A stretch of DNA of 64,000 nucleotides from Candidatus Cloacimonadota bacterium (GTDB lineage Bacteria > Cloacimonadota > Cloacimonadia > Cloacimonadales > TCS61). Of this stretch, positions 2,013 through 40,308 are shown in pieces. The stretch is taken from the NCBI GenBank assembly GCA_030445745.1, contig JASUTE010000005.1:1-64000 (forward strand), given 5' to 3'. The position numbers and the translations under genes are program-made. The notes under the pieces were generated by a model. The model saw only the letters and a list, made by a program, of their open reading frames with translations, did not search any database and had not been told where the DNA came from. Position 1 is the stretch's first letter, and each line of letters starts with the position of its first letter.

Positions 2013-3293
2013 TCAACTCTGTACTACCGGCAATTCATTCCAGCAGGTAGTGTAGCGTGGCGAAAGCTGTTCCCGGCGCATTTTCCAATCTTGCTCTACT
2101 CCGGAGCTCGCCAATTGAATGGTATCTCGGCCAAATTTATCATTTATTCTGTCACTAAAATCGGCCAGTGTTTTGCGCTCATCATCCAAATAGCAGGGAG
2201 CAAACAAATCCAAAGGCGCATATTTGTGGGAAATAATATCGGAAATCATCACACCTGCTTTTTGGTAATTATAGCCTGGCCGGAATATCTCTGTCAGCAT
2301 TTTGTTGGCAATTTTTACGAAATCGGGAGTATAAGCCGAAGGAGTTTCCAACCTGGCACTGCGATAATTGGCATATTGTGCTTCCTGGCGAAAACGATTG
2401 GTTTGTATAAAAACCATTATCTGGTAGGCTAAAGAATTTTGCTGGCGCAATTTCTCTACAGCTCGGGTTGTGTATTGGGAAACAGCATGTTTCAATTTAG
2501 ATAGGTCGGTTACTAGTTTGCCAAAAGATTTGGAAGAAACGATATTTTTTCGCGGCATTATATCTAATTCCAAATCTATACAGGAAATTCCTCGCAGTTC
2601 TTTCACCAAGCGCAGTCCTGTTATAGTCGTCATTTTTTCTATCCATTTATCTTCGCATTGAGAAAGCTGCCAGGCATCATGAATACCGTAGCGTTGCAAT
2701 TTTTCGGCATAGCGCCGGCCTATACCCCATATTTTGGGGGTAGGAATACTCTGTAACACTTGCTTGAATTTGGGATGGGCGACTAAATTGAAAACGCCGT
2801 TGAACTTTTTATAGCGTTTAGCGACGGTATTGGCCAATTTTGCCAGGGTTTTGGTAGAGGCTATACCCACCGACACCGGAATTCCTGTCCATTTTTCCAC
2901 ACTTGCTTTTATTTTTTGTCCATACTGCTGCCAATTTGGGCAATTGATGCCTGTTAACTCCAGAAAAGCTTCGTCGATTGAGTAAACTTCCAAATTTGGG
3001 GTAAATTTTTCCAAACTACGCATTACCCTGGCAGACATATCGCCATACAAGGCATAGTTGGAAGAAAATAAGTGGATATCGTACTTTTTCAGCAGATGTT
3101 TTATTTTAAAAGCTGGGGTACCGCGCCCTATATGCAAAGCTTTCAATTCGGCCGAAGCAGCTACAATTATGCCATCGTTATTGGAAAGCACGCCTACTGG
3201 TTTTTGTGCTAGATCAGGCCGAAAAACTCGTTCACAGGAAACATAGAAACTGTTACAATCCACCAAGGCAAAAACTTTGTTTTGGGCTAACAT
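2013..3293 (-). CDS. umuC: Y-family DNA polymerase, UmuC type
   Basis: Catalytic subunit of an error-prone translesion polymerase (Pol V type), about 426 residues from the chosen start. It begins with the palm motif VDCNSFYVSCERVF, which carries a metal-binding Asp and the tyrosine steric-gate region. The second active-site motif YSIDEAFLEL follows. Helix-hairpin-helix and little-finger regions come next, and the C-terminus ends in the SPRYTT-W-ELP block typical of UmuC tails (DUF4113). The frame is open 17 codons further upstream, but the ATG at 3293 is preceded by GGAAAG and lies 11 bases after the umuD stop, so it is preferred. It forms an operon with umuD. Confidence 0.95.
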   Translation of the reverse strand: MLAQNKVFALVDCNSFYVSCERVFRPDLAQKPVGVLSNNDGIIVAASAELKALHIGRGTPAFKIKHLLKKYDIHLFSSNYALYGDMSARVMRSLEKFTPNLEVYSIDEAFLELTGINCPNWQQYGQKIKASVEKWTGIPVSVGIASTKTLAKLANTVAKRYKKFNGVFNLVAHPKFKQVLQSIPTPKIWGIGRRYAEKLQRYGIHDAWQLSQCEDKWIEKMTTITGLRLVKELRGISCIDLELDIMPRKNIVSSKSFGKLVTDLSKLKHAVSQYTTRAVEKLRQQNSLAYQIMVFIQTNRFRQEAQYANYRSARLETPSAYTPDFVKIANKMLTEIFRPGYNYQKAGVMISDIISHKYAPLDLFAPCYLDDERKTLADFSDRINDKFGRDTIQLASSGVEQDWKMRREQLSPRYTTCWNELPVVQS

Positions 3294-3304
3294 TTTCTTT
3301 CCTT

Positions 3305-3760
3305 TCAAAATAATTTGTGAATAGCATAGGTAACCACGCCCCAAATAGAAAAATCGGTATCTTCATCGATTTCAATAGGCTTATAATCATCGTTTTGTGG
3401 GAGTAAATACCAGCGGTTCTTGCAGATATGTAGTTGTTTAACAGTTAATTCTCCTTCCAAGGCAGCTATCACAATTTTTTTATTCGTGGCTGGCAGGGCT
3501 CTATCTACTATCAATATATCGCCCTCATAAATACCTGCATCTATCATAGAATCACCGGATACTTTCACAAAAAAAGTGGCTGCTTCGTGTAAAATAAGCT
3601 GTCGGTTCAAATCTAAATTAGCTTCTATGTAGTCTTGGGCTGGTGAAGGAAAACCAGCAGCAATTTCAGTACCCAAAAGCGGGCGTTGCAGCTCTAAACC
3701 GTTTTCTAAAATTCCTATACTGCTTATGTTGGCGCCATACGATAATTTTTTCCCGCTCAT
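3305..3760 (-). CDS. umuD: UmuD-type self-cleaving protein (S24)
   Basis: A 151-residue S24 peptidase-fold protein that on cleavage becomes the accessory subunit of the UmuC polymerase. The cleavage site is A35-G36 (EIAAGFPSPA). The catalytic dyad is S71 in VSGDSM and K108 in LTVKQL. Spacings from cleavage site to Ser and Lys (36 and 73) equal those of E. coli UmuD (C24-G25, S60, K97), which is strong support. AGGAG precedes the ATG. It is first in the operon, with umuC 11 bases downstream, and is divergent from an S24 repressor with a shared 97-bp control region. Confidence 0.95.
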   Translation of the reverse strand: MSGKKLSYGANISSIGILENGLELQRPLLGTEIAAGFPSPAQDYIEANLDLNRQLILHEAATFFVKVSGDSMIDAGIYEGDILIVDRALPATNKKIVIAALEGELTVKQLHICKNRWYLLPQNDDYKPIEIDEDTDFSIWGVVTYAIHKLF

Positions 3761-25689: not shown

Positions 25690-27483
25690 GTGATAGCGAT
25701 ATTTATCGACCATAAATTGCAAAGATACGAAAATCAAATTAAATTCGCTTTTAATTTTATTTTCAGAACTTTAGGCTACGAATATAAATTCGCTTCCAAT
25801 CAGAAAGAGATCGGTAAACACGATATTGTTTTCTATTATGCAGAAACAGAGCTTTCCGATAAGGGCAAATTGCAATTAGGAAAAGACCGCCTACTTTGCT
25901 TTATCCCTTGTTTTAAAGAATTGCTTATACCCGGCAAAATTCCCAAAACCAAGCTTCGTGAATATACGCAGCAAATCAACATCGGCGATCCACTTCCTAT
26001 AATTTGTGATTGGCAGTTTAGAAATCCTATTATCTATTTGAAAAATGAGCAAGTTTTTTATGTAAAATTCCATTTTGACCTGCTGGCTAATGTGTTTTTT
26101 AACCTTTGTAACTACGAAACAGTAAATGCTGAGAGAGATAGTTTAGGCAGAATCCCCGATAGTGAATACTTGCACCATGATTTCTTTTATTATCCATATG
26201 TAAATGCTATGTTGTGGTTCATAGAACAAGTTCTTAAGGACGCAGTAACCCGCAGCGGACGTTGTTTTTTAACTAAAAAAGAGATGTGGCCAGCTGCCCA
26301 AGATTATGGTTTTGCGGTTTCCCATCAGCTAGATAGGTTACAAAAATGGACTGTGGGACGCTTTTTTAAAAGTTTTTTCAAAGATTTATTACTTATTATA
26401 CACGTAAAATATGTGTGTAAAAATCTATATAGCAAATTGAAATATATTCTTACCAATATAGAAGAATACTGGAACTTCGACGAAATTGAAGAGATAGAAA
26501 ACGAAACTGAATTTAAATCTACCTTTTTTTTGGGAAGCGAACACGAAAATGAATATGATGTGGACTATGACTTAGATGATAGAGATCTTTTGGAAGAATT
26601 GGAGAGAATAGAAAAACAAAATAAAGAGATAGCTCTGTTAGGTTCTTACCAATCTGCTAAATCTGATATTTTAAGTCACCAAAAACATTCTATTAGTCAA
26701 CTTATCAATAAACATAAAATAGGGATACGTCAGATTTGTTTTCGTTATTTTCCTGAATTTACTGCTGAATATCATTATAAACACAGCTTTTTTTACGACA
26801 GCTCGCAAACCTTACTTACAAGACCAGGTTTTAAATGTGGTATTGCCTTACCGTATCACCCTTATGCTGTGAATGATGCTACAGAATTAATACCAAAGCT
26901 AGCGTTAGTTCGCGATACTATTTTGGAACTACCATTAGCTTTTCGAGCTTCTAGCCTAAAAAAATCGCCTTTTAGTATTATAGAAAAACAGGAGGCTAAA
27001 AAGCTGTTTAACCATACTATAAAGGGAGTGAAACAGTATGGCGGCTTTTATAGTATGGATTTTACCTGTGCCGATTTTGCTGAGATCGATTATTTGAAAG
27101 GATTTTATAGCGAAATTCTACAGCAGGTAGATAAAGATAATTGCTATAAAGCTACTTATAAACAAATCGCTGACTGGTGGAAGAAACGAGAAAATGTGCA
27201 AATCACCGATTCCAAAGATGATATAATCATTCATTTCCCCGATCATTTACCAGAATTTGTACTTACAATTGTAGGAAATAATAGTTTCGACAGTGTGGAA
27301 AATGATAAAAATCGTGAAGATGAAAACCAAATTTTCTTACCCTACTACGACAAACAGAATACATTTGAATTTAATGGGACTAAGGTAAAATTCGCAAAAG
27401 ACCGAATATTTTTTAGCGAAATAAAACCTGATACCAGGCTGCGCATCAAGCTTTCCAAAAAGGAAATTGAGAAGGAAGCATGA
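25690..27483 (+). CDS. Polysaccharide deacetylase-like protein (DUF7033-like)
   Basis: A 597-residue cytoplasmic protein opening the glycan operon. Its layout resembles the DUF7033 plus degenerate NodB-deacetylase proteins of Bacteroidota clusters. The N-terminal domain (~1-120) is followed by GFAVSHQLDRLQKW at the place of the first metal-binding Asp. Later GFKCGIALPYHPYA and DTILELPLAFRASSL match the family's second half. A central acidic stretch (~260-310) looks disordered. The NodB His ligands are not obvious, so activity is doubtful. The start is GTG with AAGGG upstream, and the stop overlaps the next gene by 4 bases. Confidence 0.7.
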   Translation: MIAIFIDHKLQRYENQIKFAFNFIFRTLGYEYKFASNQKEIGKHDIVFYYAETELSDKGKLQLGKDRLLCFIPCFKELLIPGKIPKTKLREYTQQINIGDPLPIICDWQFRNPIIYLKNEQVFYVKFHFDLLANVFFNLCNYETVNAERDSLGRIPDSEYLHHDFFYYPYVNAMLWFIEQVLKDAVTRSGRCFLTKKEMWPAAQDYGFAVSHQLDRLQKWTVGRFFKSFFKDLLLIIHVKYVCKNLYSKLKYILTNIEEYWNFDEIEEIENETEFKSTFFLGSEHENEYDVDYDLDDRDLLEELERIEKQNKEIALLGSYQSAKSDILSHQKHSISQLINKHKIGIRQICFRYFPEFTAEYHYKHSFFYDSSQTLLTRPGFKCGIALPYHPYAVNDATELIPKLALVRDTILELPLAFRASSLKKSPFSIIEKQEAKKLFNHTIKGVKQYGGFYSMDFTCADFAEIDYLKGFYSEILQQVDKDNCYKATYKQIADWWKKRENVQITDSKDDIIIHFPDHLPEFVLTIVGNNSFDSVENDKNREDENQIFLPYYDKQNTFEFNGTKVKFAKDRIFFSEIKPDTRLRIKLSKKEIEKEA

Positions 27484-28724
27484 AGGACTTACTTTTGATA
27501 TCCTATTTTTTCCCACCATTGGGGGGGCCGGGTGTGCAAAGAGTTCAAAAATTTGCTAAATATCTTGGAAAATTTGGTTGGCGACCTGTGGTACTCACTG
27601 TAAAAGATATCGAGTATGTAGCTTACGACCCCACCTTATTAACCGAGATTTCCGATATTCCTATCTATCGTAGCGGCTCTGCCGATCCCATGCGGATTTT
27701 ACATATTTTGGAAAAAATGAGGGGAAAGAGGAAACGACTTTATACCGAAGTGAAAGAGGAACGCAAAAAGTTATGGCGCGATATCTTTCCTATAGATTCT
27801 AAAATAGGATGGTTACCTTTTGCGGTTAATAAAGGTGTAGCACTTGGGAAAATTTATAATTTTAAAGCTGTCTATGCTACTTTACTTCCTTATAGTTCAG
27901 CTCTGGTCGGTTACAAAATAGCAAAAAAATTGCAACTACCCCTTATTTTAGATTATCGTGATTTATGGCTGGGAAAACCAGAGATCAGTTTCTTTTCAGA
28001 ATGGCATAAAAAGTTAGCAAAGAAATGGGAAGCGAAAATACTACAATTTGCCAGTAAAGTAATTATGAATACTCATCGTGCCAAAGACAAAATAAAAGAG
28101 ATCTATCCTCAAATCGATTCGCAGAAATTTCAGGTTATATACAACGGCTACGATAGCCAGGATTTTGAAGAAAATATCCAAACCCATGATGATAAGATAA
28201 TTTTTACTTATACAGGAGGTTTCTATGGCGAGCGTACACCAGAGTATTTTTTGCAAGCTTTAGAAACCATGGAAATCCCAGAAAATGTAGTTTTTCGGTT
28301 TGTAGGAAATTATTTCAAACATATAAAAGAAATGTTCAAAAAAAGTGGTAAAAAGCAACATTTACAGATTATTCCTCAGGTAAATCATCGGGAAAGTGTA
28401 CGTTATTTGCAACAAAGCGATTTTCTGTTACTATTTATTGCTAAGCACAAAAGCGAGATAGTGATTCCAGCAAAAGTCTTTGAATATTTAGCTGCTCGCC
28501 GACCAATTTTGGCAATGATACCACCCCAGGGAGAAGCGGCTGAGTTAATTTCACAGCACAAAGCTGGCCTTATTTGCCCTATCGATGCAGTTAGCCAAAT
28601 TCAAAAAAATATAAAAGAGATGATATCCGGCAATAACAATTTTAAACTGGACACACAAGATTACAGCATTTATTCTAGAAAAAGTTTAACTCGTAAATTG
28701 GCTGATATCCTGGAGGAAGTGTGA
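27480..28724 (+). CDS. GT4 glycosyltransferase
   Basis: A 414-residue GT-B fold transferase for surface glycan assembly. The N-terminal nucleotide-free domain begins ISYFFPPLGGPGVQRVQKF, which contains the glycine-rich acceptor loop. The donor domain has FTYTGGFYGERTPEYFL and VIPAKVFEYLAARRPILAM, the place of the family's E-x7-E. No membrane helices. Coupled at both ends: its ATG overlaps the previous stop (ATGA) and its stop overlaps the next GTG start (GTGTGA). Sugar specificity cannot be read from the sequence. Confidence 0.88.
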   Translation: MKDLLLISYFFPPLGGPGVQRVQKFAKYLGKFGWRPVVLTVKDIEYVAYDPTLLTEISDIPIYRSGSADPMRILHILEKMRGKRKRLYTEVKEERKKLWRDIFPIDSKIGWLPFAVNKGVALGKIYNFKAVYATLLPYSSALVGYKIAKKLQLPLILDYRDLWLGKPEISFFSEWHKKLAKKWEAKILQFASKVIMNTHRAKDKIKEIYPQIDSQKFQVIYNGYDSQDFEENIQTHDDKIIFTYTGGFYGERTPEYFLQALETMEIPENVVFRFVGNYFKHIKEMFKKSGKKQHLQIIPQVNHRESVRYLQQSDFLLLFIAKHKSEIVIPAKVFEYLAARRPILAMIPPQGEAAELISQHKAGLICPIDAVSQIQKNIKEMISGNNNFKLDTQDYSIYSRKSLTRKLADILEEV

Positions 28725-29818
28725 AAAAAGTAGCCCATATACAGATTTTACCGATCTTAGCTGGCGGGCAGCGGGTACTTTTAGATATTTTGTCTGCTTT
28801 GCCAGAAACTGCTTATGAAAAATATGTGATAACTCGCAGTGGTGGTATTTTAGTAGAAAAGGTAAAGCAATTGGGTTACACTCACATCTCTGCTAATTTT
28901 CTCTATCGCAAATTTACTCCGTTAGATATTGTAGCCTTTTTTCAGCTTTTTTTCATTTTCCGAAAATACAAATTCGATATTGTGCATACTCATGCTTCCA
29001 AAACAGGTATTTTAGGAAGATTAGCCGCTAAATTGGCAGGTGTACCGGTTATTTTTCATACTGTACATGGTTTCAGTTTCCATCCTTATCAGAACCAATT
29101 GGTAAATAAATTTTATCAATTCGCCGAGAAATTTACAGCAAAATTTAGCGATAAAATTGTGTTTGTTAATAACTACGAGCGTCAGCTAGCTCTACAAAAA
29201 AATATTGTGAATGCCAAACAAGCCGTAACAATCTACAATGGGGTAGAAGTAGCTAAACAACAGCGGCAAAAACCTGATGATTTTAAAGATTTTTTTGTGA
29301 TTGGCAGCACTTTACGCTTCGAACCTCAAAAAAATATTGTTGATACCGTAAAGGTAGCAATTATTTCTGCTAAATTGAATCCGAAACTAAAATTTGTGTT
29401 TGTGGGTGCTGGTTCACTTTTGAACAAAGCTCAGCATTTGGTACGCAAAAATCGGATGGAGCATCGAATAATTTTACCGGGCTGGCAGAAGGATATAAAC
29501 TGGTGGTTGCGTAGTTTCGATGCCTTTCTGCTGTTTTCCAAATGGGAAGGTCTGCCACTTTCTATTTTGGAAGCAATGGCGCATGGATTACCGATAATTG
29601 CTTCCGATATTAAAGGTAATGACGAATTGGTAGATCAGCGCAATGGTGTGCTTGTATCTGTAAATCATATTGACAAATTGGTTCAGGTATTAAGAACTTT
29701 ACCGCAGAATAAGAATTTGCAAAAGTGGCAAGAAGGTTCCTTGTGGAAAGTACAGCAAATTTTCAGCCACGAAAAATTTATTAAAAAATACCGAGATTTA
29801 TACGATGGTGCAGAATAA
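28721..29818 (+). CDS. GT4 glycosyltransferase
   Basis: A 365-residue glycosyltransferase related to the WcoF/EpsD-like group. HIQILPILAGGQRVLLDIL holds the acceptor loop, VHTHASKTGILGRLAAKLAG the central strand, and HTVHGFSFHPYQN the following loop. The donor site is SKWEGLPLSILEAMAHGLPI with both glutamates. The start is GTG preceded by GGAGGA and overlaps the upstream stop. The end overlaps the sugar transferase gene by 14 bases. Confidence 0.9.
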   Translation: MKKVAHIQILPILAGGQRVLLDILSALPETAYEKYVITRSGGILVEKVKQLGYTHISANFLYRKFTPLDIVAFFQLFFIFRKYKFDIVHTHASKTGILGRLAAKLAGVPVIFHTVHGFSFHPYQNQLVNKFYQFAEKFTAKFSDKIVFVNNYERQLALQKNIVNAKQAVTIYNGVEVAKQQRQKPDDFKDFFVIGSTLRFEPQKNIVDTVKVAIISAKLNPKLKFVFVGAGSLLNKAQHLVRKNRMEHRIILPGWQKDINWWLRSFDAFLLFSKWEGLPLSILEAMAHGLPIIASDIKGNDELVDQRNGVLVSVNHIDKLVQVLRTLPQNKNLQKWQEGSLWKVQQIFSHEKFIKKYRDLYDGAE

Positions 29819-31163
29819 AATTAAACAGTTCATATTACTGCTGGGGGATCTGGTAGTTTTCTATGGATCACTCTATTTAACTCTATTTGTGCGTTATGGG
29901 CAGCTTCCTTCAAAGCAGTTGTGGCAACAACATTTTTTGCCATTTACTGCTGTTTTTGTTGTTTGGATCATCATCTTCTATATTTCCGAACTCTATAATT
30001 TAAATTTCGCAATTAATAATCGTAAATTTTATCGTCTTTCTTTTCGTAGTTTCTTTTCTGGCGGTTTGATAGCTGCCCTATTCTTCTATTTAAATCCACA
30101 TATAGATATTACTCCCAAAACCAATTTGGCTATTTTTGTTGTTATTTTTGCAATTTTTTTCCTACTATGGCGTAATTTTTATAATTGGTCTTTGAAATCT
30201 TATCTACCTAAAGAACATCTGGCAATTGTGGGTTACAACGAGCTGGTAGGTGAGCTGGTTGCAGATTTGAAGAATAAACCACATTTAGGATACCAGATAG
30301 ATTTTTTGGTGAGTGAGCAGCAAGTTGACCAAGCTGGGCTCCCCGTATATTCCAATTTAGAAAATTTAAAAAAATATCTTGGCCAAAAGAAAATCTCTAC
30401 AGTAGTTTTAGCCAGTGATCCAATAAGGTCGGAAAAACTTAACACAATTTTGTTCGAATGTCTTTCTTTAAAGCTAAATTTTATTAATCTTTCCCATTTT
30501 TATGAAAATATGACGGGGAAAGTGCCTATCGATATTATTAATAAAAGTTGGTTTTTAGAAAACTTAACAGAAGGGAATAAAAGCTTTTACGATATTTCCA
30601 AGCGTATATTTGATATTTTGTTGAGCATTATTCTGCTGCCATTCTTATTTATTTTAGCACCATTTATAGCAATCATTATAAAGCTGGACAGTAAAGGACC
30701 AGTCTTTTTTAAGCAACTTCGGTTAGGAAAAATGGGTAAGCGAATAAATGTGGTGAAGTTTAGAACTATGCACTATAATGCCAACTCTACGAAACCCACC
30801 GATGAAAATGATGAACGTATCACAAATTTCGGTAGATTTCTACGCAAAACCAGACTGGACGAACTTCCGCAAATTGTGAATGTGCTGAAAGGTGAAATGA
30901 GTTTTGTGGGACCGCGACCAGAAAGACCAGAATTGGTGAAGGAATTGGAAAAAGTTGTGCCTTTTTACAAAGAACGGATGTTGGTGAAACCCGGAATTAC
31001 CGGCTGGGATCAGATAAGCAATGAATACCATTCACCTTCCTATAAAGATACTATGAAGAAATTGCAGTACGACCTTTTTTATATAAAAAACAGAGCACTG
31101 TCTTTGGATATTTCGATAATTTTGAAAACTTTAACTACGATGTTGGCTCGCAGTGGACGCTAA
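29805..31163 (+). CDS. Polyprenyl-phosphate sugar-1-phosphate transferase
   Basis: A 452-residue membrane enzyme of the WbaP/EpsE type. It should start glycan synthesis by placing a sugar-1-phosphate on undecaprenyl phosphate. Four N-terminal membrane helices (~8-120) and a Rossmann-like CoA-binding-type domain (~140-250) precede the bacterial sugar transferase domain. That domain contains a membrane helix ([20 protein letters not shown]), [26 protein letters not shown] and [13 protein letters not shown]. It is the committed initiating enzyme of this operon and depends on the lipid carrier recycled by UppP. Confidence 0.92.
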
Positions 31164-31182: not shown

Positions 31183-33579
31183 ATGAAAAGGATATTTTTG
31201 TTAGCACTGATTTTAACTGTTAACTTTCTATTTGCTCAGAAAAATTGGCAGGTTTATACCAATAAAACTCATATTTATCAGATGGAAGAGACAGAAGAGG
31301 GTATATATTTGGCTACCTGGGGTGGATTAGTTCTGTATGATTCTAATTCAAATACATTTACCAAAACCTACACTACTATAAATGGTTTATCTGACCAGGA
31401 TATAAGAGCTGTCACCTTCCAAGAAAGCTCCGGGATTTTTTGCGCTGGAACCAAAAATGAAGGAATTAACAGAATTCAAAATAATAGATTTATAATGCCG
31501 ATAAAAGAAGATATTGGCCTGATGAGTAACACTGTAAATGCCATAGTTGATAACGATAGTCTGCTTATAGCTGCCACTAAAGAGGGTGTTAGTGTTTTCA
31601 AAAATAGCGATGAGCTTCCTTTCCCTTTTTTATTTCATAATTTGAATATTATTAATGGGCTAAGCTCAAATAATATAACTTCTCTGCAGTTGACTGATAA
31701 CGGCTATCTTTATTGCGGTAGTGCCGCTGGCTTAGATTTTGCTCCTCTCGATTCCCTGCAGTACAGCAGTGCCTGGCAAAGTTGGAATTCTGAAAACTCG
31801 GAACTACCTTCTAGTAAAATTTCTGATATATCTGCCAATGGGAATATGCTGGCAGTTGCTACTGAAAATGGCTTAGTAGCATTTGATCTTAGTGGTATGC
31901 AACCACCTTTGGTTTATGAGCAGAGTGCTATTTATCCCATTTTTGTGGATTCACAGTCCAGAATTTGGTATGGATATGGAATTTGGGATGATATGTTTCT
32001 GGAAGTGATAGACGCTGGTGATATAGCAATAAAATGCCTGGACGCCGATGAGCTTCAAATATGGGAAATTTCCGATTTAGATATAAACACTAATGCAATA
32101 ATGGGTTTTAGGGAATTTGAAGATAAGATCTATGCTTACACCTGGGGAGATGGCTTCATTACTTATGAAAATGGCAATTGGGGAGAGCAGCGTAAACCTA
32201 ATACTATTTTAGCTAATCTGGTTACCGACATAGAACTGGATATGAATAACAAATTGTGGGTTAGCAATGGGCACGCCGGTGGAGGTGCAATAAGTAAGGG
32301 TACAAAGGGAGTTTCTAGTTTCAATGGCCAGGTATGGGAAAATTATACGATTGAAAATAGCGGTTTACAAGGCCATAATATTTTTACAATTGGCCTTGAT
32401 AAGCAGAACCGAAAATGGTTTGGAGCATGGACAGGTGGGTCTTCTGAAGGTTGGCAGGCAGGCATTAGCATTTTAGATGAATCAGTTCAGCCCCATAAAT
32501 GGGAATATCTGAATACTTCAAATAGCGCTATGACTAGCAATTGCATTTCCAATATAACTCTAGGTCCAGAAGGTTATATCTGGGTTTGCGGATACGATCA
32601 TAATATAGAGGTAATCTCAACTGAAGAGGAAGAACTGGAGATAGTGCATAGTTTTAGTGCAGAAGCTTATGACGTGGATAAAAAAGTGATGTTAACACAT
32701 TTTGCCAATAATGGTGAGATCTATTTTGGTTCTTACTATTTTGGTTTAGGAATTTGGACAGGTGAAGGTTGGCCAGAAACAAATGACTATTCCCATTGGA
32801 AAACACCGCCTTTTACCGAGTTAACTGGGTGTAGAATTTACGATATCGAGGAGCGACAAACTGCTTTTGAGAATGAAATATGGATTGCTGCTGCCGAAGG
32901 TTTATTTATGCGTGATTCACAAACCTGGTGGCGTTATGGAACTCAGATAAAAAAACAAGAATGGCGTGGATATTGGTACGATGAATTTACTCCTGAATAT
33001 CGCTACATTGAAGGGCAAGAGCGCCTATATGGTTCGGTTCCTACATATCCTACAGCTTTGTTTATAGATAATTTTGATCGAATTTGGATAGGAACAGATA
33101 GCCATGGAATTACTGTTTTTGAACCAGCAAAAGATAAATTTACCAACTATCATAGGGAAAACAGCCCTCTGGTATCAAATACTATTACCGATTTTTGTTA
33201 TGATGAGATAGATGGAAAGCTTTATATTGGTACTCCCGAAGGTTTGATGAGTGTGGAGATAGGCATTTATCCAGACAATAACACTGAAGAAGATTTGGCA
33301 AAAACTCGTGCATTTCCCAATCCTTTTTATCCAGATAAAGGTGAAGAGCTTTTTATAGAAAATGTGGGCAAACTTACCATGCCAAAAGGGGAAACTAAAT
33401 GCAATATCTACGACCTGGCAGGAGATTTAGTGTTAACATTAGAAAAAAATATCTACGAACAATTTACCTGGAATGGTTTGAATAAAGAGGGGAAAAAATG
33501 TTCATCAGGAATGTATTTTTATGTTGTTTATACTGCTGATGGACAAACTTCTCAAGGTAAAGTAGTTCTTATCCGATGA
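31183..33579 (+). CDS. Secreted beta-propeller protein with C-terminal sorting domain
   Basis: A ~798-residue exported protein. A signal peptide (MKRIFLLALILTVNFLFA) is followed by repeated two-component-regulator-propeller blades (for example GLSDQDIRAVTF, GLSSNNITSLQL, SNTITDFCYDEIDGKLYIGT). The C-terminal ~85 residues form a FlgD-like/type A sorting domain: AFPNPFYPDKG, CNIYDLAGDLV, FTWNGLNKEGK, SGMYFYVV and a final GKVVLIR. Such domains direct proteins through the type IX system to the cell surface. No kinase is fused. The frame is open from 31153, but AAGGAG supports ATG 31183. It is the only operon member preceded by a gap (19 bases); its own stop overlaps the next start. Confidence 0.9.
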   Translation: MKRIFLLALILTVNFLFAQKNWQVYTNKTHIYQMEETEEGIYLATWGGLVLYDSNSNTFTKTYTTINGLSDQDIRAVTFQESSGIFCAGTKNEGINRIQNNRFIMPIKEDIGLMSNTVNAIVDNDSLLIAATKEGVSVFKNSDELPFPFLFHNLNIINGLSSNNITSLQLTDNGYLYCGSAAGLDFAPLDSLQYSSAWQSWNSENSELPSSKISDISANGNMLAVATENGLVAFDLSGMQPPLVYEQSAIYPIFVDSQSRIWYGYGIWDDMFLEVIDAGDIAIKCLDADELQIWEISDLDINTNAIMGFREFEDKIYAYTWGDGFITYENGNWGEQRKPNTILANLVTDIELDMNNKLWVSNGHAGGGAISKGTKGVSSFNGQVWENYTIENSGLQGHNIFTIGLDKQNRKWFGAWTGGSSEGWQAGISILDESVQPHKWEYLNTSNSAMTSNCISNITLGPEGYIWVCGYDHNIEVISTEEEELEIVHSFSAEAYDVDKKVMLTHFANNGEIYFGSYYFGLGIWTGEGWPETNDYSHWKTPPFTELTGCRIYDIEERQTAFENEIWIAAAEGLFMRDSQTWWRYGTQIKKQEWRGYWYDEFTPEYRYIEGQERLYGSVPTYPTALFIDNFDRIWIGTDSHGITVFEPAKDKFTNYHRENSPLVSNTITDFCYDEIDGKLYIGTPEGLMSVEIGIYPDNNTEEDLAKTRAFPNPFYPDKGEELFIENVGKLTMPKGETKCNIYDLAGDLVLTLEKNIYEQFTWNGLNKEGKKCSSGMYFYVVYTADGQTSQGKVVLIR

Positions 33580-34553
33580 AAAAAGTAGCTGTAGTTTCTG
33601 CATATCAGAAAACTTTTATTGAACAGGATATTAAAGCTTTAAAAGATGAATTTGAAGTTCTAAAATTACAGCTACCGCAAAAAAATCTGAGAAATATACT
33701 TCAATTACTACGTATAATTCAGCAGACAGATCTGGTTTTAATCTGGTTTGCCGATTTTTGGGCTATGCTAGCTGTTTTTCTATCTAAAATATTGGGGAAA
33801 AAAACAGTAGTGGTTGTTGGAGGCTATGAACTAGCTGCTTTACCAGATTTAAATTATGGTGGTTTATTAAGAAAAAGAACCTACCGAATGGTGAGTTATA
33901 TATTAAAAAATGCTGATCGTGTGCTATTTGTAGACGATTCCTTACGACAGGAAGCTCGAAGTAAATTACACTTAAATCTCGAGTCTTTTCAAGTGGTTCC
34001 TTCTGGCATTGATACCAATTTTTTTGTAGAAGCTGGAGCAAAAAAGAATATGGTTTTAACTGTAGCAGCTTGCCACACTACAGAAATAGCTATTTTGAAA
34101 GGATTAGATAAATTTGCAGATGTGGCAAAGCTGTTACCAGAAATAACATTTTGCATAGTGGGAGCAGAAGCAGAAGCAGCCCAATGGCTGCGTGCACTAA
34201 AAGTAAAAAATCTGAAAATTGTAAATCAACTGCCTCCTCTGGAATTACTGAAATATTATCAACAGGCATCTGTTTATTGCCAATTATCGGTAAGAGAAGG
34301 TTTACCGAATGCTCTTTGTGAAGCAATGCTATGTGGGTGTGTGCCAGTAGGAAGTAATGTAAATGGCATACCAACCGCTATCGGCAATACCGGGGTTATA
34401 TGTCCCGATCGAGAATTGATAACCATTTACAATTGCATTAAAACAGCAATGGAAATGGGAAAAACCAGCAAGCCTCGTTTACGGATAAAGGAAAATTTTT
34501 CCTTACAACTACGCAAAAAAAAGCTGAAAGAGATATTTGAGGAACTGCTGTGA
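33576..34553 (+). CDS. GT4 glycosyltransferase
   Basis: A 325-residue, slightly short GT4 enzyme. KKTVVVVGGYELAALPDLNYG and VPSGIDTNFF mark the N-terminal domain and linker. SVREGLPNALCEAMLCGCVPV is the donor-site E-x7-E motif. No membrane segments. Its ATG overlaps the stop of the secreted propeller gene (ATGA), so expression of the two is coupled, and its stop overlaps the next GTG start. Confidence 0.88.
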   Translation: MKKVAVVSAYQKTFIEQDIKALKDEFEVLKLQLPQKNLRNILQLLRIIQQTDLVLIWFADFWAMLAVFLSKILGKKTVVVVGGYELAALPDLNYGGLLRKRTYRMVSYILKNADRVLFVDDSLRQEARSKLHLNLESFQVVPSGIDTNFFVEAGAKKNMVLTVAACHTTEIAILKGLDKFADVAKLLPEITFCIVGAEAEAAQWLRALKVKNLKIVNQLPPLELLKYYQQASVYCQLSVREGLPNALCEAMLCGCVPVGSNVNGIPTAIGNTGVICPDRELITIYNCIKTAMEMGKTSKPRLRIKENFSLQLRKKKLKEIFEELL

Positions 34554-35971
34554 CCAAATTGCATATAAATAAGTTAACACCCGCTTGGAAGATTATATTA
34601 AACCAAATCGGTTTGCCATATACCGAAACAGATTCAGTAGAAGCTGAGCTGGTGTTAATGAATACCTATTCAGCAGGAATGGAGAATCTGCAGCAGCCAG
34701 GTATTATTTTAACTCCCAAAGTAGCTTCCCAGTTTCTAAAATACAAAATATATCCCCAAAAAAGTATATTTTTACAAGGTGAGTTTGCTGATCTGAACCC
34801 ATTGGATTTACATACCAATTTTTATCTGTTTAAAGAAGCTAAACTGTTAAAATCTGGTATACAAAGGTATAAAAACTTTTGGATATTGCCATTTGCTATT
34901 GAAGATGTTATTATAAAAAACAAAAATCAGCGTAAGAAATTTTATGCAGAGCGCTACGAGTTGCCTTCTGAAATTGTTTCTAAAGTTAGTAAAGGAAATA
35001 TCCGGCGCTGGCTGCAGCGGGTTTTCCTAAAAATATTGCAGGAAAATCACAAAATTTATGTTAGATACTCTCATCTACCGCAACCAGAGCAAAATTTATT
35101 TATATTTCGTATTGACACCGATTTTGCCAATTTGAACGAGGTTGAACAGCTGTATGAGCTATTAGAAAAATATGAGATAAAAGCTTCATGGTACATCGAG
35201 GCAACTGCAGAAACTAAGCTAATGAAATTTTATCGTAAATTGCAGGAAAATAATCACGAGGTTGGCTTGCACTGCTTCAGGCATAGAGTTTTTAAAGATT
35301 ATGATAGAAATTTACAGAATATGCTGCAAGGGAAAACGATTTTGCAAAAAAATGGTATTTTCCCGCGCGGATTTGTGGCTCCCTTTGGAGAATGGAACGA
35401 AAATCTGGATTTGGCAATACAGGAATTGGGTTTTGACTACAGTTCCGAATTTTCTTTAAATTACGATGATTTACCATTTTATCCTTATACCGGTAATAAA
35501 TTTTCTGCAAACTTACAAATTCCTATTCATCCCATTAGTATAGGCAGGTTACGCCGTTCTCATTTCACAGAACAGGAAATGATAGAGTATTTTAGATTCG
35601 TTTTAAAGCAAAAAGGTGCATATCAGGAACCGCTGATAATCTATCATCATCCAGGGCATAAACATTGGCAGGTGTTGGAAGCTATTTTTCAGGAAGTACA
35701 AGCTTGGCCTAAACAAACTATGTTAGAATATGCTAACTGGTGGCGACAGCGCCAAGAAGCAGAAATTTTGAATGAAACCACAGAAATTCCATTTTATATG
35801 CAAAAAGAAGATAAATATACTTATACAAAAGATCTAAAAGTAACTACTTCCAAATTGAATTGGCAGCTGGTAAAGAGCGGAAAACCTGTGATGAACCCAA
35901 ACCTGAGGAAATGGAGCTGGCGCGATTGGTTGTATAATTTTGAAGCTTGGCGCGGAAAGGTGAAAAAATGA
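34550..35971 (+). CDS. Polysaccharide deacetylase family protein
   Basis: A 473-residue protein with a NodB-like domain in its middle. FRIDTDFANLNEV supplies the Asp pair, HEVGLHCFRHR the metal-binding His-x3-His type motif, and GFVAPFGEWNENL the next block. A late IIYHHPGHK holds the C-terminal His. No signal peptide, so it may act on cytoplasmic lipid-linked sugars, or be non-catalytic. The N-terminal ~170 residues are not assigned. Starts at GTG overlapping the preceding stop. Confidence 0.78.
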   Translation: MTKLHINKLTPAWKIILNQIGLPYTETDSVEAELVLMNTYSAGMENLQQPGIILTPKVASQFLKYKIYPQKSIFLQGEFADLNPLDLHTNFYLFKEAKLLKSGIQRYKNFWILPFAIEDVIIKNKNQRKKFYAERYELPSEIVSKVSKGNIRRWLQRVFLKILQENHKIYVRYSHLPQPEQNLFIFRIDTDFANLNEVEQLYELLEKYEIKASWYIEATAETKLMKFYRKLQENNHEVGLHCFRHRVFKDYDRNLQNMLQGKTILQKNGIFPRGFVAPFGEWNENLDLAIQELGFDYSSEFSLNYDDLPFYPYTGNKFSANLQIPIHPISIGRLRRSHFTEQEMIEYFRFVLKQKGAYQEPLIIYHHPGHKHWQVLEAIFQEVQAWPKQTMLEYANWWRQRQEAEILNETTEIPFYMQKEDKYTYTKDLKVTTSKLNWQLVKSGKPVMNPNLRKWSWRDWLYNFEAWRGKVKK

Positions 35972-37011
35972 AAATATATTTTGCTACTTATCAAGCTCTT
36001 TTAATGAATAAAGGAGGTCCTACCTACAAGATTTTCTCTTTGCAGAAAAATTTGCTGAAATTAGGTATCGAAGTTCATCTTTATAACATGTGGAATTTAG
36101 AGCAACAGCCTACCAATAAAGATCTTGTCCACCTTTTTACAGCTAATTTAAATACCTATCCACTAGCACGTAATCTACAAGTAGCCGGCATTCCCTATGT
36201 GGTTAATCCAATATTTTTTAGTAATCATAAGGCTGGAATGATAAGAAAATATTTATCATTGGAAAAAATAGCTGGGAAACTGCTGAAACGTTCCTACTCA
36301 GATTATACAATTACTCAGAAAATATGCCAGCAGTCACAAAAAGTGCTTCCTAATACTAAAGCTGAAGCTGAACTCCTGCAGCAAGCTTTGGCTATTGCAC
36401 CAGAAATAACCGAGGTAATTCACAATGGAGTGGAAAAACGTTTTGCTGCAGCGAACTCAGCTGAATTTAAAAAGAAATTTGGTTTGGAAGATTTTGTATT
36501 ATATGTGGGCCATTTAGGTTCACTGCGCAAAAATGGAGTAAATATTGTAAAAGCACTGCAGAAAATGGATGTACCAGCTGTGATAATTGCTGATGTTTTA
36601 CAAACTCCTCAGGGAATTTGGTGTGAAGAGCAGATAGCTGCCAGCAATAATATCACTCTGATAAAATGGATAGAACACGAGGATTCCCTGCTGGCTTCTG
36701 CTTATGCTGCCTGTCATACTTTTATTTTACCTACTAAATTTGAAACTCCCGGAAGAGCTGCTTTGGAAGCAGGTTTAGCAGGAGCAAATATAGTAATAAC
36801 TCCACACGGTGGCACCAAGGAATATTTTGAAGATATGGCCGAATATGCACAACCAAATTCAGTAAACGATATCGTGCGGGCTACCGAAAAGATGCTAAAT
36901 AAAAGAAAAAATGATAAGTTAAAACAGCATATATTAAATAATTTCACTTGGGAAAAAATAGCTGATCAAACCTGGCAGCTTTACAAAAAAATTGGAAAAG
37001 AGCGCAGTTGA
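35968..37011 (+). CDS. GT4 glycosyltransferase
   Basis: A 347-residue GT4 transferase. MNKGGPTYKIFSLQKNLLKL carries the acceptor loop and EVIHNGVEKRF the linker. KFETPGRAALEAGLAGANIV holds the donor-site region, with Glu at both expected positions. The frame is open from a TTG at 35947, but ATG 35968, after AAAGGTG and overlapping the previous stop, is the better start. It overlaps the radical SAM gene's TTG by 4 bases. Confidence 0.88.
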   Translation: MKIYFATYQALLMNKGGPTYKIFSLQKNLLKLGIEVHLYNMWNLEQQPTNKDLVHLFTANLNTYPLARNLQVAGIPYVVNPIFFSNHKAGMIRKYLSLEKIAGKLLKRSYSDYTITQKICQQSQKVLPNTKAEAELLQQALAIAPEITEVIHNGVEKRFAAANSAEFKKKFGLEDFVLYVGHLGSLRKNGVNIVKALQKMDVPAVIIADVLQTPQGIWCEEQIAASNNITLIKWIEHEDSLLASAYAACHTFILPTKFETPGRAALEAGLAGANIVITPHGGTKEYFEDMAEYAQPNSVNDIVRATEKMLNKRKNDKLKQHILNNFTWEKIADQTWQLYKKIGKERS

Positions 37012-37856
37012 TTCTATTAGAAAAATTTAAAACTTGGGAAGCTACCCGCAAAAATTTGGGATATAAACTGAGCAAATTCTATCTGCACAATCTGAAAATA
37101 AGATTTTTTAGGAAATTTAAACTAAAAAATCAACAAAAAAGATATGGCCTGGTATCCACAAATTTAGAAACATACGCCTACTGTAATCGTAAATGTAGTT
37201 TTTGCTTTAATAACGAACGTTTTCCTCAACGTAGTAAAGGTGAACTTTCCACCTACTTTTGGCAGCAGATAATTGACCAACTAGCAGAGATAAACTTTGC
37301 TGGGCGTATATCTCCACATTTTTATGGAGAACCGCTACTGGATAAAAGATTACCTGAACTTTTAGCTTATGCCCGCCAAAAACTACCTTGGGCTCATATC
37401 GTCGTAGTAACAAATGGTGATTTTTTGAATGAAACTAAACTGCGCCAGCTAATCGAAGTGGGTGTAGATCATTTTGCAGTAACTAATTACGATGATTGTG
37501 AGCGACCGATTTTGCAAGAATTGCAAAAAAAGTTTCCTCTGCACATCCATGTACGCAGCTATAAAGATTATCCCAAAACCGATCGCACTGGCGAAATTTT
37601 CCATAAAAATAAATTAGTACAAAAACCTTGCTTGCGTCCAACATCCCAACTGGTTATAAATTGGCAGGGTCAGGTATTACTTTGCTGTATGGATTATTAT
37701 GCTAAAGAAGTTATGGGAAATATTAAAACTAATAAGTTATGGGAAATTTGGAATTCGCCTAAATTCCAAAAATATCGCAGAATTTTGCAACAAGGGCAAC
37801 GACAGAAAATAGGAATTTGCAAACATTGCGACGATCCTGGAGTAATTCCATGGTAA
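37008..37856 (+). CDS. Radical SAM protein with SPASM-like C-terminus
   Basis: A 282-residue radical SAM enzyme. The [4Fe-4S] motif is C59-x3-C63-x2-C66 (YCNRKCSFCF). C-terminal cysteines occur in PCLRPTSQL, LLCCMDYY and ICKHCDDPG, as in short SPASM/Twitch domains with an auxiliary cluster. GEPLLDKRLPELL is the usual SAM-binding neighbour. It starts at TTG within a TTGA overlap. Embedded among glycosyltransferases, it could modify a sugar or a lipid-linked intermediate; relatives in capsule clusters are uncharacterised. Confidence 0.85.
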   Translation: MILLEKFKTWEATRKNLGYKLSKFYLHNLKIRFFRKFKLKNQQKRYGLVSTNLETYAYCNRKCSFCFNNERFPQRSKGELSTYFWQQIIDQLAEINFAGRISPHFYGEPLLDKRLPELLAYARQKLPWAHIVVVTNGDFLNETKLRQLIEVGVDHFAVTNYDDCERPILQELQKKFPLHIHVRSYKDYPKTDRTGEIFHKNKLVQKPCLRPTSQLVINWQGQVLLCCMDYYAKEVMGNIKTNKLWEIWNSPKFQKYRRILQQGQRQKIGICKHCDDPGVIPW

Positions 37857-39328
37857 AAACAGGCTTATTCCGCAAAATTTTGCACTATTCTTTTGCCACT
37901 TTAGTTAGTAAGGGACTGGTTTTTCTTATTTTGCCCTTTCTCACTTATTATTTATTACCCAGTCAATACGCTATCTACTCGCTGCTAATGTTTTTTGCTG
38001 CTCTAATGAGCATGTTCTACCAATTTGGACTGCAACAGTCGCTTATGACTCTCTATCATCGTCAGCATACTGAGGCAGAAAAATTTAAATTGGTAACTAC
38101 AATTTATATAGCAATTTTTTCCATTGCAACGCTGGGTACCGTGGTGTTGCTTATTTGGCGGCAATCACTGCTTAAATTTATCTTACACATTCCTTTAACA
38201 CCGCAGCTGGAACAGATTTTTATTCTTACAGTTTTTTTTATTATTATCGATTTATTTACGGCTGTCACCCTTATCTTACTTAATATTCGTCAAGATTCAC
38301 GTCGTTTTTCCTATTTAGCACTAACCAAAAATCTCGTTTTTTTCTTACTCATAATTCTAGGCGCTGTTACCCAGAGATTGAGTTTATTTTACCTTTTTGC
38401 TTCATTATTGGTAGCTGCGATTTGTTCTGCTTTGCACGCCACCAACTATTTTGGCAAGATATTGAAAGAACTTAAAACTTCCGAACAAAAGATTAAACTG
38501 TTTTCTCTTCCTATTCTAAAAGAGGTTTTGCGTTTTGGAATCTATATGCTGCCAGCCACATTTGCTGTGCTTATTTTGCAATCTTCCGATCGCTATATGT
38601 TGAACTTACTTTCACCTAACAAATTACAAGATGTAGGAATTTATGCAGCAGCTTATAAGATAGGGATGTTGATGAGTTTGCTAACAAGCATTTTCGATTT
38701 AGTATTTTTTCCGTATATATTACAGCAGGCTGAATCGGGAAGAGTAAAAATAATGTTGCGACGGTTATTTTTATTATACAACATACTCGGTGGCGCGATT
38801 GCTTTGTTAATTATTTTGTTTTCATCGGAAATCTTTCTAATTTTAGATTCTAATTATGCTTTAGGCGGGAAGATAGTGTTCTTCAGTGTTATTTCCATGT
38901 TTCTGCGAGGTATTTTTAATCTGATAAATTTAGGGTTTTATATCTTGAAGCGTTCCAGAAGTATAGCTTTGGGCGTAGTTTTGGGTGCTTTTATCAATTT
39001 GCTTTTGAATTATTTTTTAATACCAAAATGGGGGATGTTCGGCGCTGGTTTTGCTTCTATTTTAGCTTATATGTTTATAGTTTTCTTCAATTATGCCGCT
39101 GTACAAAAAGCCTTTCCTGTTCAGTATAATTTCTGGTTTTTGGCTGCTAATATAGTTATTTTGGCCTTTTCAGCTTGGATAAACTATTTCCAAATAAGTT
39201 GGCAGTTGTTATTGATAAAAGTGGCGATAGCCCTGGTGATATGTGGTATAAGCGGGGTATTAATAATGCGTTCACCCAAATTTGAAAAATTCAAAGAAAT
39301 TCTGCTGGGAAAGGAAATTGAAAGATGA
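37850..39328 (+). CDS. Polysaccharide flippase (Wzx / MATE-like)
   Basis: A 493-residue integral membrane protein with about fourteen hydrophobic helices, belonging to the oligosaccharide flippase superfamily. The start SKGLVFLILPFLTYYLLPSQ, and ILQSSDRYMLNLLSPNKLQD at about 250, match the family. It should move undecaprenyl-linked repeat units across the inner membrane. The ATG at 37850 overlaps the radical SAM stop (ATGGTAA); an upstream in-frame TTG at 37817 is unlikely. No Wzy polymerase is evident in the operon, so polymerisation may be encoded elsewhere. Confidence 0.9.
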   Translation: MVKTGLFRKILHYSFATLVSKGLVFLILPFLTYYLLPSQYAIYSLLMFFAALMSMFYQFGLQQSLMTLYHRQHTEAEKFKLVTTIYIAIFSIATLGTVVLLIWRQSLLKFILHIPLTPQLEQIFILTVFFIIIDLFTAVTLILLNIRQDSRRFSYLALTKNLVFFLLIILGAVTQRLSLFYLFASLLVAAICSALHATNYFGKILKELKTSEQKIKLFSLPILKEVLRFGIYMLPATFAVLILQSSDRYMLNLLSPNKLQDVGIYAAAYKIGMLMSLLTSIFDLVFFPYILQQAESGRVKIMLRRLFLLYNILGGAIALLIILFSSEIFLILDSNYALGGKIVFFSVISMFLRGIFNLINLGFYILKRSRSIALGVVLGAFINLLLNYFLIPKWGMFGAGFASILAYMFIVFFNYAAVQKAFPVQYNFWFLAANIVILAFSAWINYFQISWQLLLIKVAIALVICGISGVLIMRSPKFEKFKEILLGKEIER

Positions 39329-40308
39329 AGAAGATTTGGCCAAATGAAATTATATTTGGAAACAGTACAAACTTTCCCAAATTAGGTAAAATTTATGTTG
39401 TCGATAACAAACTACATCAACTGTATCCTAATAAAATTGAAAAAATTACAGCAGAAGGGGCTGTATTAAATATAGAAGTTTCGGAAAAAAACAAAAATTT
39501 ACAAACTTTGCAAAAAATCTTTAAATTTTTCTTAAAACATGATGTTACCCGAGAAGATATGGTTGTTGCTATCGGCGGAGGCATTCTTACCGATATCACT
39601 GCCTTAGCGGCTTCACTTTTTAAACGTGGTTGCCAGCTGGCGTTTGTTCCTACCACTCTTCTGGCTATGGTAGATGCTGCTGTAGGTGGGAAAACTGCGG
39701 TAAATTTTACAGGATATAAAAATATTTTGGGTAACTTCTATCCTGCCCACAAAATTATTATCGATTTAGATTTCTTAGATAAATTACCTGAATCTGAATT
39801 TGATAATGGCTATATTGAAATAAAAAAAATTGCCTTGCTTGCTGACAGTGGACTTTTAGAGATGATAAAAGAAAAAGCGCCACTACAGGCTCTTATTGAA
39901 AAAGCCATTTTAACTAAAAAGGAGTTTTGCCTACAAGATCCTAACGATATGGGGGAGAGGCGCTTTTTAAACTTAGGTCACACCTTTGCGCATCTCATCG
40001 AAACTGCCACAAATTTTAACTTTCCACATGGTTTGGCAGTAGCCAAGGGAATTATGTTAGCCGCAGCCTATAGCGTATTTTTGGGAAAATTATCGCAAGA
40101 TGAATTTAACCAGATATCTCTTCTTTTCGAGCCATATCAGCTTCCCAATTTTCCGTTATTAAATTTTACTGAATTTAAAAAAATTATCCGTAAAGATAAA
40201 AAAAAGGGTAAGGAAGTTAATTTAATACTATTGGAGAGTATTTATAAACCATTCCTATTTCCGGAAGCTAACTTAAAAAGATTGTATAATTTTATATATC
40301 AAAAATAA
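39325..40308 (+). CDS. AroB-like sugar-phosphate cyclase
   Basis: A 327-residue member of the 3-dehydroquinate synthase family. NAD- and metal-site blocks are clear: GGGILTDITALAASLFKRG, VPTTLLAMVDAAVGGKTAVN and FLNLGHTFAHLIETATNF with zinc-type histidines. Departures from housekeeping AroB are EIKKIALL where AEVIKYGL is usual, and HGLAVAKG where HGEAVAxG is usual. It is last in the glycan operon, coupled by ATGA. It may be the cell's AroB or a cyclase making a cyclitol-like building block; the sequence alone does not decide. A palindromic terminator follows. Confidence 0.82.
   Translation: MKKIWPNEIIFGNSTNFPKLGKIYVVDNKLHQLYPNKIEKITAEGAVLNIEVSEKNKNLQTLQKIFKFFLKHDVTREDMVVAIGGGILTDITALAASLFKRGCQLAFVPTTLLAMVDAAVGGKTAVNFTGYKNILGNFYPAHKIIIDLDFLDKLPESEFDNGYIEIKKIALLADSGLLEMIKEKAPLQALIEKAILTKKEFCLQDPNDMGERRFLNLGHTFAHLIETATNFNFPHGLAVAKGIMLAAAYSVFLGKLSQDEFNQISLLFEPYQLPNFPLLNFTEFKKIIRKDKKKGKEVNLILLESIYKPFLFPEANLKRLYNFIYQK

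Follow-up and report, generated by a model that had tools for sequence, protein, structure and literature searches.

Why does a polysaccharide operon of a Candidatus Cloacimonadota bacterium also encode a protein that resembles a component of the type IX secretion system? The gene in question occupies positions 31183-33579 on the forward strand of the window, by which we mean the whole 64,000-nucleotide stretch analysed here (positions 1-64000 of contig 15 in a genome of 2.04 Mb that is 99.3% complete). A preliminary description of this DNA had recognised its product as a propeller protein that bears a type IX-like domain at its C-terminus and is encoded between an initiating sugar transferase and a coupled glycosyltransferase, and had proposed that the operon makes a glycan anchor of which the protein is a client. 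The domain assignment and the position are both borne out. The proposed pairing stands in part: the presence of type IX genes in the genome and the conservation of the propeller gene in synteny make a link between the glycan and type IX secretion the best reading of the locus, whereas the role of client is not supported, the protein resembling PorZ.

The open reading frame starts with an ATG at 31183, preceded by a Shine-Dalgarno-like GAAGGAG, stops at 33577-33579 and encodes 798 aa. Read by eye, the N-terminus is signal-peptide-like (MKRIFLLALILTVNFLFA/Q); two beta-propellers follow, and a C-terminal sorting-type domain covers approximately residues 710-798 (33310-33576, forward strand). This last domain scores over the cut-offs of TIGR04183 (27.3 bits, cut-off 23), which places it among the type A sorting domains, and of CHU_C (29.2 bits, cut-off 27), and it stays below the PF18962 cut-off of 27, with 18.4 bits in the protein scan and 22.1 bits in the genome scan. 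The propeller family Reg_prop (48.4 bits) and PorZ_N (PF21544, 35.5 bits, cut-off 27) are likewise matched over their Pfam cut-offs. The gene is not a chance reading frame, since a search with its protein was positive in 56 of 59 genomes, counting its own (G020, G047 and G054 gave no match), mostly with one match per genome, the additional matches being contig pieces or short and weak.

The NCBIfam model of PorZ, NF052228 (T9SS_PorZ), gives 159 bits (E 1.6e-46) on this protein; as this is under the curated cut-off of 260, we name it PorZ-like and do not file it under NF052228. All 37 aligned PorZ-like proteins (the window's own and 36 from the 39 fetched relatives, where three truncated proteins were excluded) match this model and no other NCBIfam family at 1e-10. 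In the bacterium's own genome the propeller part of the model is matched by the focal gene alone (101 bits over model positions 282-753 and 51 bits over 1-199), the other 53 of the 55 matches covering the C-terminal domain or little more. An AlphaFold2 model of the protein (pLDDT 89.8, pTM 0.88) found PorZ of Porphyromonas gingivalis (PG1604, PDB 5m11) as its best Foldseek match (E 1e-30, TM 0.68/0.72), and VIA-align superposed residues 20-798 on residues 29-776 of 5m11, C-terminal domain included (Z 30.7, 687 residues, 5.0 Å). The model, aligned in this way, has the architecture of PorZ, a pair of beta-propellers with a sorting-type domain behind them at the C-terminus, at the level of whole propellers rather than counted blades. 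The two proteins thus share their architecture, a similar length and a structural match over their full length; they differ in sequence, with 16-18% identity in the structural alignments and a focal score below the NCBIfam PorZ cut-off.

Propellers of this kind might instead read or shape polysaccharide, in the manner of the sensor parts of hybrid two-component systems, the sorting domain serving only for delivery to the surface and no protein being anchored. A sensor or assembly factor of this sort would be at home in a polysaccharide operon, and by sequence the PorZ-family profile places sensors slightly ahead of PorZ itself (143.6 bits for the heparin sensor 4a2l and 135.5 for 3v9f, against 128 for 5m11). 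Since sensors score level with or above PorZ, the name PorZ-like is kept, and the assignment of function rests on fold and context together. Yet VIA-align of the focal model with 4a2l, a BT4663-type sensor, superposes 557 residues at 18 Å rmsd and leaves the C-terminal domain unaligned (Z 31.5), Pfam and NCBIfam scans found no kinase domain in the focal protein, and in three loci of relatives it is the type IX gene Sov/SprA that lies directly upstream of PorZ. We consider a role as glycan sensor or assembly factor unlikely.

The genes around the PorZ-like gene all lie on the forward strand. After a DUF7033 protein (25690-27483, treated below) come two GT4-type glycosyltransferases (27480-28724 and 28721-29818, both PF00534/PF13439) and an initiating phosphoglycosyl transferase of the WcaJ type (29805-31163; PF02397, E 9.1e-64; TIGR03025, 371 bits, over cut-off), which ends 19 bp before the PorZ-like ATG. 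Directly downstream, the stop of the PorZ-like gene and the start of another GT4-type glycosyltransferase (33576-34553, PF13692/PF00534) share 4 bp, ATGA, at 33576-33579. There follow an apparently ordinary CE4 polysaccharide deacetylase (34550-35971; PF01522, 37.8 bits), which, by synteny, occupies the corresponding position in many loci of the same family, a GT4-type glycosyltransferase (35947-37011; PF00534, 43.6 bits), a radical SAM/SPASM protein (37008-37856; PF04055, PF13186), a Wzx-type flippase (37817-39328; PF01943, 69.3 bits) and a dehydroquinate-synthase-like cyclase (39325-40308; TIGR01357, 253 bits, cut-off 305; TIGR04425, 245 bits, cut-off 400). Pfam scans identified no Wzy or ligase among the operon genes, and no VimA-like (PF13480) gene was seen among those scanned with Pfam; two proteins of the O-antigen-ligase family (PF04932) are encoded on other contigs, outside the operon.

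Within the anchor pathway, the cyclase might act on a sugar. It is also the genome's only aroB match, below the aroB cut-off, and in six relatives (L062, L063, L067, L068, L074 and L078) a dehydroquinate-synthase-like gene lies directly downstream of PorZ. Far upstream, the window contains what we take, from motifs seen by eye, to be a tyrosine-recombinase-like gene (259-1368) and a UmuC/UmuD-like pair (2013-3760).

The preliminary description had named type IX genes elsewhere in the genome as a check on its proposal, and a PorU-like sortase, Sov/SprA and the PorV family are all present. The PorU-like protein (C21:58551-60713) scores 394 bits with NF033707, below the cut-off of 420, and is PorU-like by that model; its His (in YIGHG) and Cys (in GSC) align with those of PorU (6za2), and we take them to be the catalytic residues. 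Sov/SprA reaches 502 bits with TIGR04189 when read with its neighbours in frame (cut-off 200), and five PorV-family genes exceed their cut-off, though one does so only when read in this same way. The best PorQ score was 120.5 bits against a cut-off of 220, the strongest matched places being PorV-family genes as well. The PorU model was matched in all 20 genomes searched, own included (nine over cut-off; the best match in G007 is confined to the C-terminal part). The bacterium's own genome encodes a second PorU-like protein at C16:87236-91789, in an open frame of 1672 aa adjoined by a PorV-family gene. A possible type IX system in Cloacimonadota has already been mentioned in print, in a passage of PMC11285876.

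Is the propeller protein then ordinary cargo of this system, itself attached to the glycan of its operon? Its TIGR04183 domain over cut-off speaks for this, and the genome holds 67 Por_Secre_tail matches, of which the 66 others suggest a working cargo system. The two weakest of the 67, though, are PorU (23.7 bits) and, lowest of all, the focal protein (22.1 bits), and cargo would not be expected to combine its conservation across the 56 genomes, mostly as one match, with a PorZ-specific match over the propellers and a fold match to PorZ that continues through the C-terminal domain. In P. gingivalis, moreover, PorZ and PorU keep their C-terminal domains, which are not replaced by the anchor, according to parts of PMC11285876 and, for PorZ, of PMC5121618. 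The weak score of the focal domain fits a similar retention on the surface form, as far as the sequence can suggest it. The role of client therefore seems to us improbable; the protein is probably the counterpart of PorZ in this lineage of Cloacimonadota, and so a part of the machinery and not cargo, and, like PorZ, its gene is single-copy in a genome with a PorU-like sortase. The remaining C-terminal-domain matches, of which the genome has approximately 65 at other places, are likely to include the clients of the system.

The second check named at the outset was whether the propeller gene keeps its place in the syntenic operons of other genomes, and it does. Flanks were fetched for 39 of the other 55 genomes with a match. 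A same-strand gene lies directly upstream of PorZ in 38 of these 39 loci, the remaining one (L059) ending at a contig edge. In a Pfam scan of 35 of the upstream genes, leaving out the contig-edge fragments of L053 and L056 and a 2086-aa gene of L075, 28 were PF00953 and six PF02397 transferases, and one (L071) was neither. That last locus is intact; the gene upstream of PorZ (L071:11345-12472, the same gene as in L112) encodes a 376-aa protein with no Pfam match.

A further set was named, of 54 loci with long matches (L089-L143 minus L141), nearly all titled Cloacimonadota, Cloacimonetes or Cloacimonas and covering largely the same genomes as the fetched relatives; one locus has no PorZ match and ten lie at a contig edge, which leaves 43 assessable. 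By purpose-built profiles, the same-strand gene immediately upstream of PorZ is a transferase in 38 of the 43 (34 of the PF00953 and four of the PF02397 type), though many of these loci are the ones behind the profile, so that a profile match there is not independent, as the 35-gene Pfam scan is. In 25 of the 38, the transferase gene overlaps PorZ by 4 bp. In three other loci (L118, L134 and L142), Sov/SprA is directly upstream of PorZ and the transferase and DUF7033 genes are the next two on the other side, in a convergent orientation that is seen in L075, which is the same contig as L118. Overall, a phosphoglycosyl transferase adjoins PorZ in 41 of the 43 assessable loci; the failures are L112, not counted among the positives as the upstream-transferase profile, built without the L071 member, does not match the L071/L112 gene, and the fragment L131 (L222, which repeats L136, was not counted). 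This adjacency persists at 31-51% identity of the PorZ-like protein to that of the window. Two loci titled Armatimonadetes or Armatimonadota (L089 and L090) carry the Cloacimonadota operon; the matching contigs of G009 and G021 are placed in the window's own family, and the titles look wrong.

The enzyme next to PorZ is not always of one kind. When 27 PorZ-like proteins (26 labelled) are placed on a tree, the class of the adjoining transferase changes six times, at least five of these changes being forced by well-supported branches, and the PF00953 and PF02397 classes are unrelated folds. The slot is kept and the enzyme in it changes. Transferase class does not cluster on the PorZ tree, with six changes compared with a mean of 5.5 after shuffling. 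Both this result and the switching of class while PorZ stays tell against recognition of the first sugar by PorZ, which the data do not support.

A second gene accompanies PorZ. The DUF7033 protein at 25690-27483 (25.1 bits, below the cut-off of 27) has a homologue near PorZ in 30 of the 39 fetched relative loci, and its family aligns by hhalign (probability 100, E 5.9e-44) with a family of relatives that we call CE4-like from its motifs. The Zixibacteriota member of the latter has no Pfam match. We aligned 21 of the 31 available Cloacimonadota companion proteins and 16 of the 21 available from other phyla: the catalytic Asp that comes first in HDxD is missing in 20 of the 21, and none of the 21 has the metal-binding His of the second motif, whereas all 16 from other phyla retain both. 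From motif loss together with hhalign and synteny, the window's protein is probably a dead CE4-like enzyme that accompanies PorZ, a candidate conserved pseudo-enzyme.

We then compared other phyla. PorZ is found at 1e-50 in 58 of 80 Bacteroidota genomes, and the Bacteroidota control comprised 41 loci: L219 and 40 others whose flanks, truncated in some cases by the end of the contig, reached up to ~5 kb. No phosphoglycosyl transferase was found directly adjoining PorZ in the 41 by profiles and by Pfam with 25 of 92 families listed, a control that may undercount, the PF02397-type profile having missed a fused transferase domain in L240 that Pfam found; the linkage with PorZ is thus not a general PorZ rule. 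Within the same 25 of 92 families, the commonest among 76 of the 77 immediate neighbours of at least 80 aa were lumazine synthase (10), recO (9) and ABC-transporter ATPase (8), and four neighbour proteins matched glycosyltransferase family 2. Elsewhere in the stretch, the profiles found a phosphoglycosyl transferase in four of the 41 loci. In L240, PorZ is directly followed by a GT2 gene and then by a GT2-transferase fusion, and clustering places the first of this pair in L242 and L250 as well. As a control of another kind, the transferase profiles matched nothing in 10 PorU and Sov loci (L034-L041, L081 and L292).

In a Zixibacteriota genome (L220:8001-13536), PorZ, a GNAT-family protein, a CE4-like protein and a GT4 stand in a row, in an order that recalls vimA-vimE-vimF. 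This CE4-like protein is matched by the DUF7033 profile at 3.6e-30, and in a Latescibacterota genome a GNAT-family gene lies close downstream of PorZ. In Bacteroidota, PorZ occurs in 21 of the 22 genomes that have the Zixibacteriota CE4-like protein versus 37 of the 58 without it (Fisher p 0.004, uncorrected for kinship). The idea that these Bacteroidota proteins are VimE was dropped: among 30 scanned of their 38 neighbours of at least 100 aa the families are mixed, and PF13480 occurs in only four of 32 scanned proteins, two being the added L220 and L221 genes. In two of the 22 loci (L269 and L275), the CE4-like gene was not recovered by ORF calling.

The same comparisons bear on whether the PorZ-like gene sits in the polysaccharide locus simply by inheritance, unlinked to the glycan made there. 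One might think so from the way in which the class of the initiating enzyme changes without PorZ following, and from Bacteroidota, where PorZ often adjoins unrelated genes such as ribH and recO. A mere passenger, however, would hardly have kept its neighbour down to 31-51% protein identity, across at least five class changes and, in three loci, after the transferase had moved to its other side; glycan genes also recur near PorZ in the Zixibacteriota genome and, in one or more of the 41 Bacteroidota loci, follow it immediately. We regard inheritance without a functional link as very unlikely.

Passages of PMC8545088 describe P. gingivalis PorZ as binding anchor lipopolysaccharide, by which its binding to PorU is strengthened. 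We think it likely that the PorZ-like protein of the window is similarly a member of a surface attachment complex and presents the anchor glycan to PorU, the operon building that glycan or its variable part, a reading that rests on gene linkage and homology. Directly observed are the match in domains and fold, the conserved linkage, and the presence of Sov, PorV and a PorU-like protein that has the His/Cys pair; from these we infer the binding of glycan, its transfer to PorU, the identity of the operon's product as the anchor, and every enzyme specificity. In the proposed pathway, the WcaJ-type transferase (29805) would put the first sugar on a lipid carrier, GT4 enzymes would lengthen the glycan, the CE4 deacetylase (34550) may free an amine, and the flippase (37817) would carry the glycan across the inner membrane; one of the two O-antigen-ligase-family proteins coded elsewhere may, by analogy, join it to lipid A-core. 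Sov would export the PorZ-like protein across the outer membrane, the protein would bind the anchor glycan and pass it to PorU, and PorU would cut the C-terminal domains from cargo and attach the glycan.

Two known systems invite comparison, apart from PorZ itself, with which the focal protein contrasts in being encoded inside a glycan operon, no phosphoglycosyl transferase having been found directly adjoining PorZ in the 41 Bacteroidota loci examined. In the Wbp/Vim pathway of P. gingivalis and Tannerella forsythia, as parts of PMC7468200 present it, a CE4-type deacetylase (VimE) and glycosyltransferases help to make the sugar that is joined to cargo, and in P. gingivalis a deacetylase and an amino-acid transferase are believed to contribute to the synthesis of the linking sugar. 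By its gene order and protein families, the Zixibacteriota row resembles this pathway, whereas the focal operon has no PF13480 among its Pfam-scanned genes and its CE4-like relative at 25690 has lost the catalytic motifs. Wzx/Wzy O-antigen loci share with the focal operon an initiating transferase, GT4 enzymes, a Wzx flippase and a gene content that varies around fixed genes; they differ in that a gene like those of the type IX attachment complex is fixed here, and in that no Wzy or ligase was identified within the operon, the PF04932 proteins being on other contigs.

PorZ and anchor glycans are already known; genetic work on P. gingivalis reportedly arrived separately at porZ and at the genes for the anchor glycan, and we know of no experimental type IX work in the present lineage. 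Full-text searches, judged by titles and the starts of abstracts, found no report of a linkage between PorZ and an initiating transferase across a phylum, of the class switching or of the dead CE4-like companion. A linkage that holds phylum-wide would point directly to the anchor pathway in Cloacimonadota, would allow gene order to serve as a marker of anchor loci in further phyla, and would make the rule that PorZ reads the anchor glycan testable outside pathogens. More tentatively, and as a possibility that we hold to be somewhat less than even, the type IX anchor of Cloacimonadota may be a variable, O-antigen-like glycan, with a locus core made of the initiating-transferase slot and PorZ, usually joined by the dead CE4-like relative, in which the first sugar is swapped and PorZ is kept. 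If this is true, the secreted proteins that coat the surface can be given a different anchor while cargo and sortase both stay as they are.
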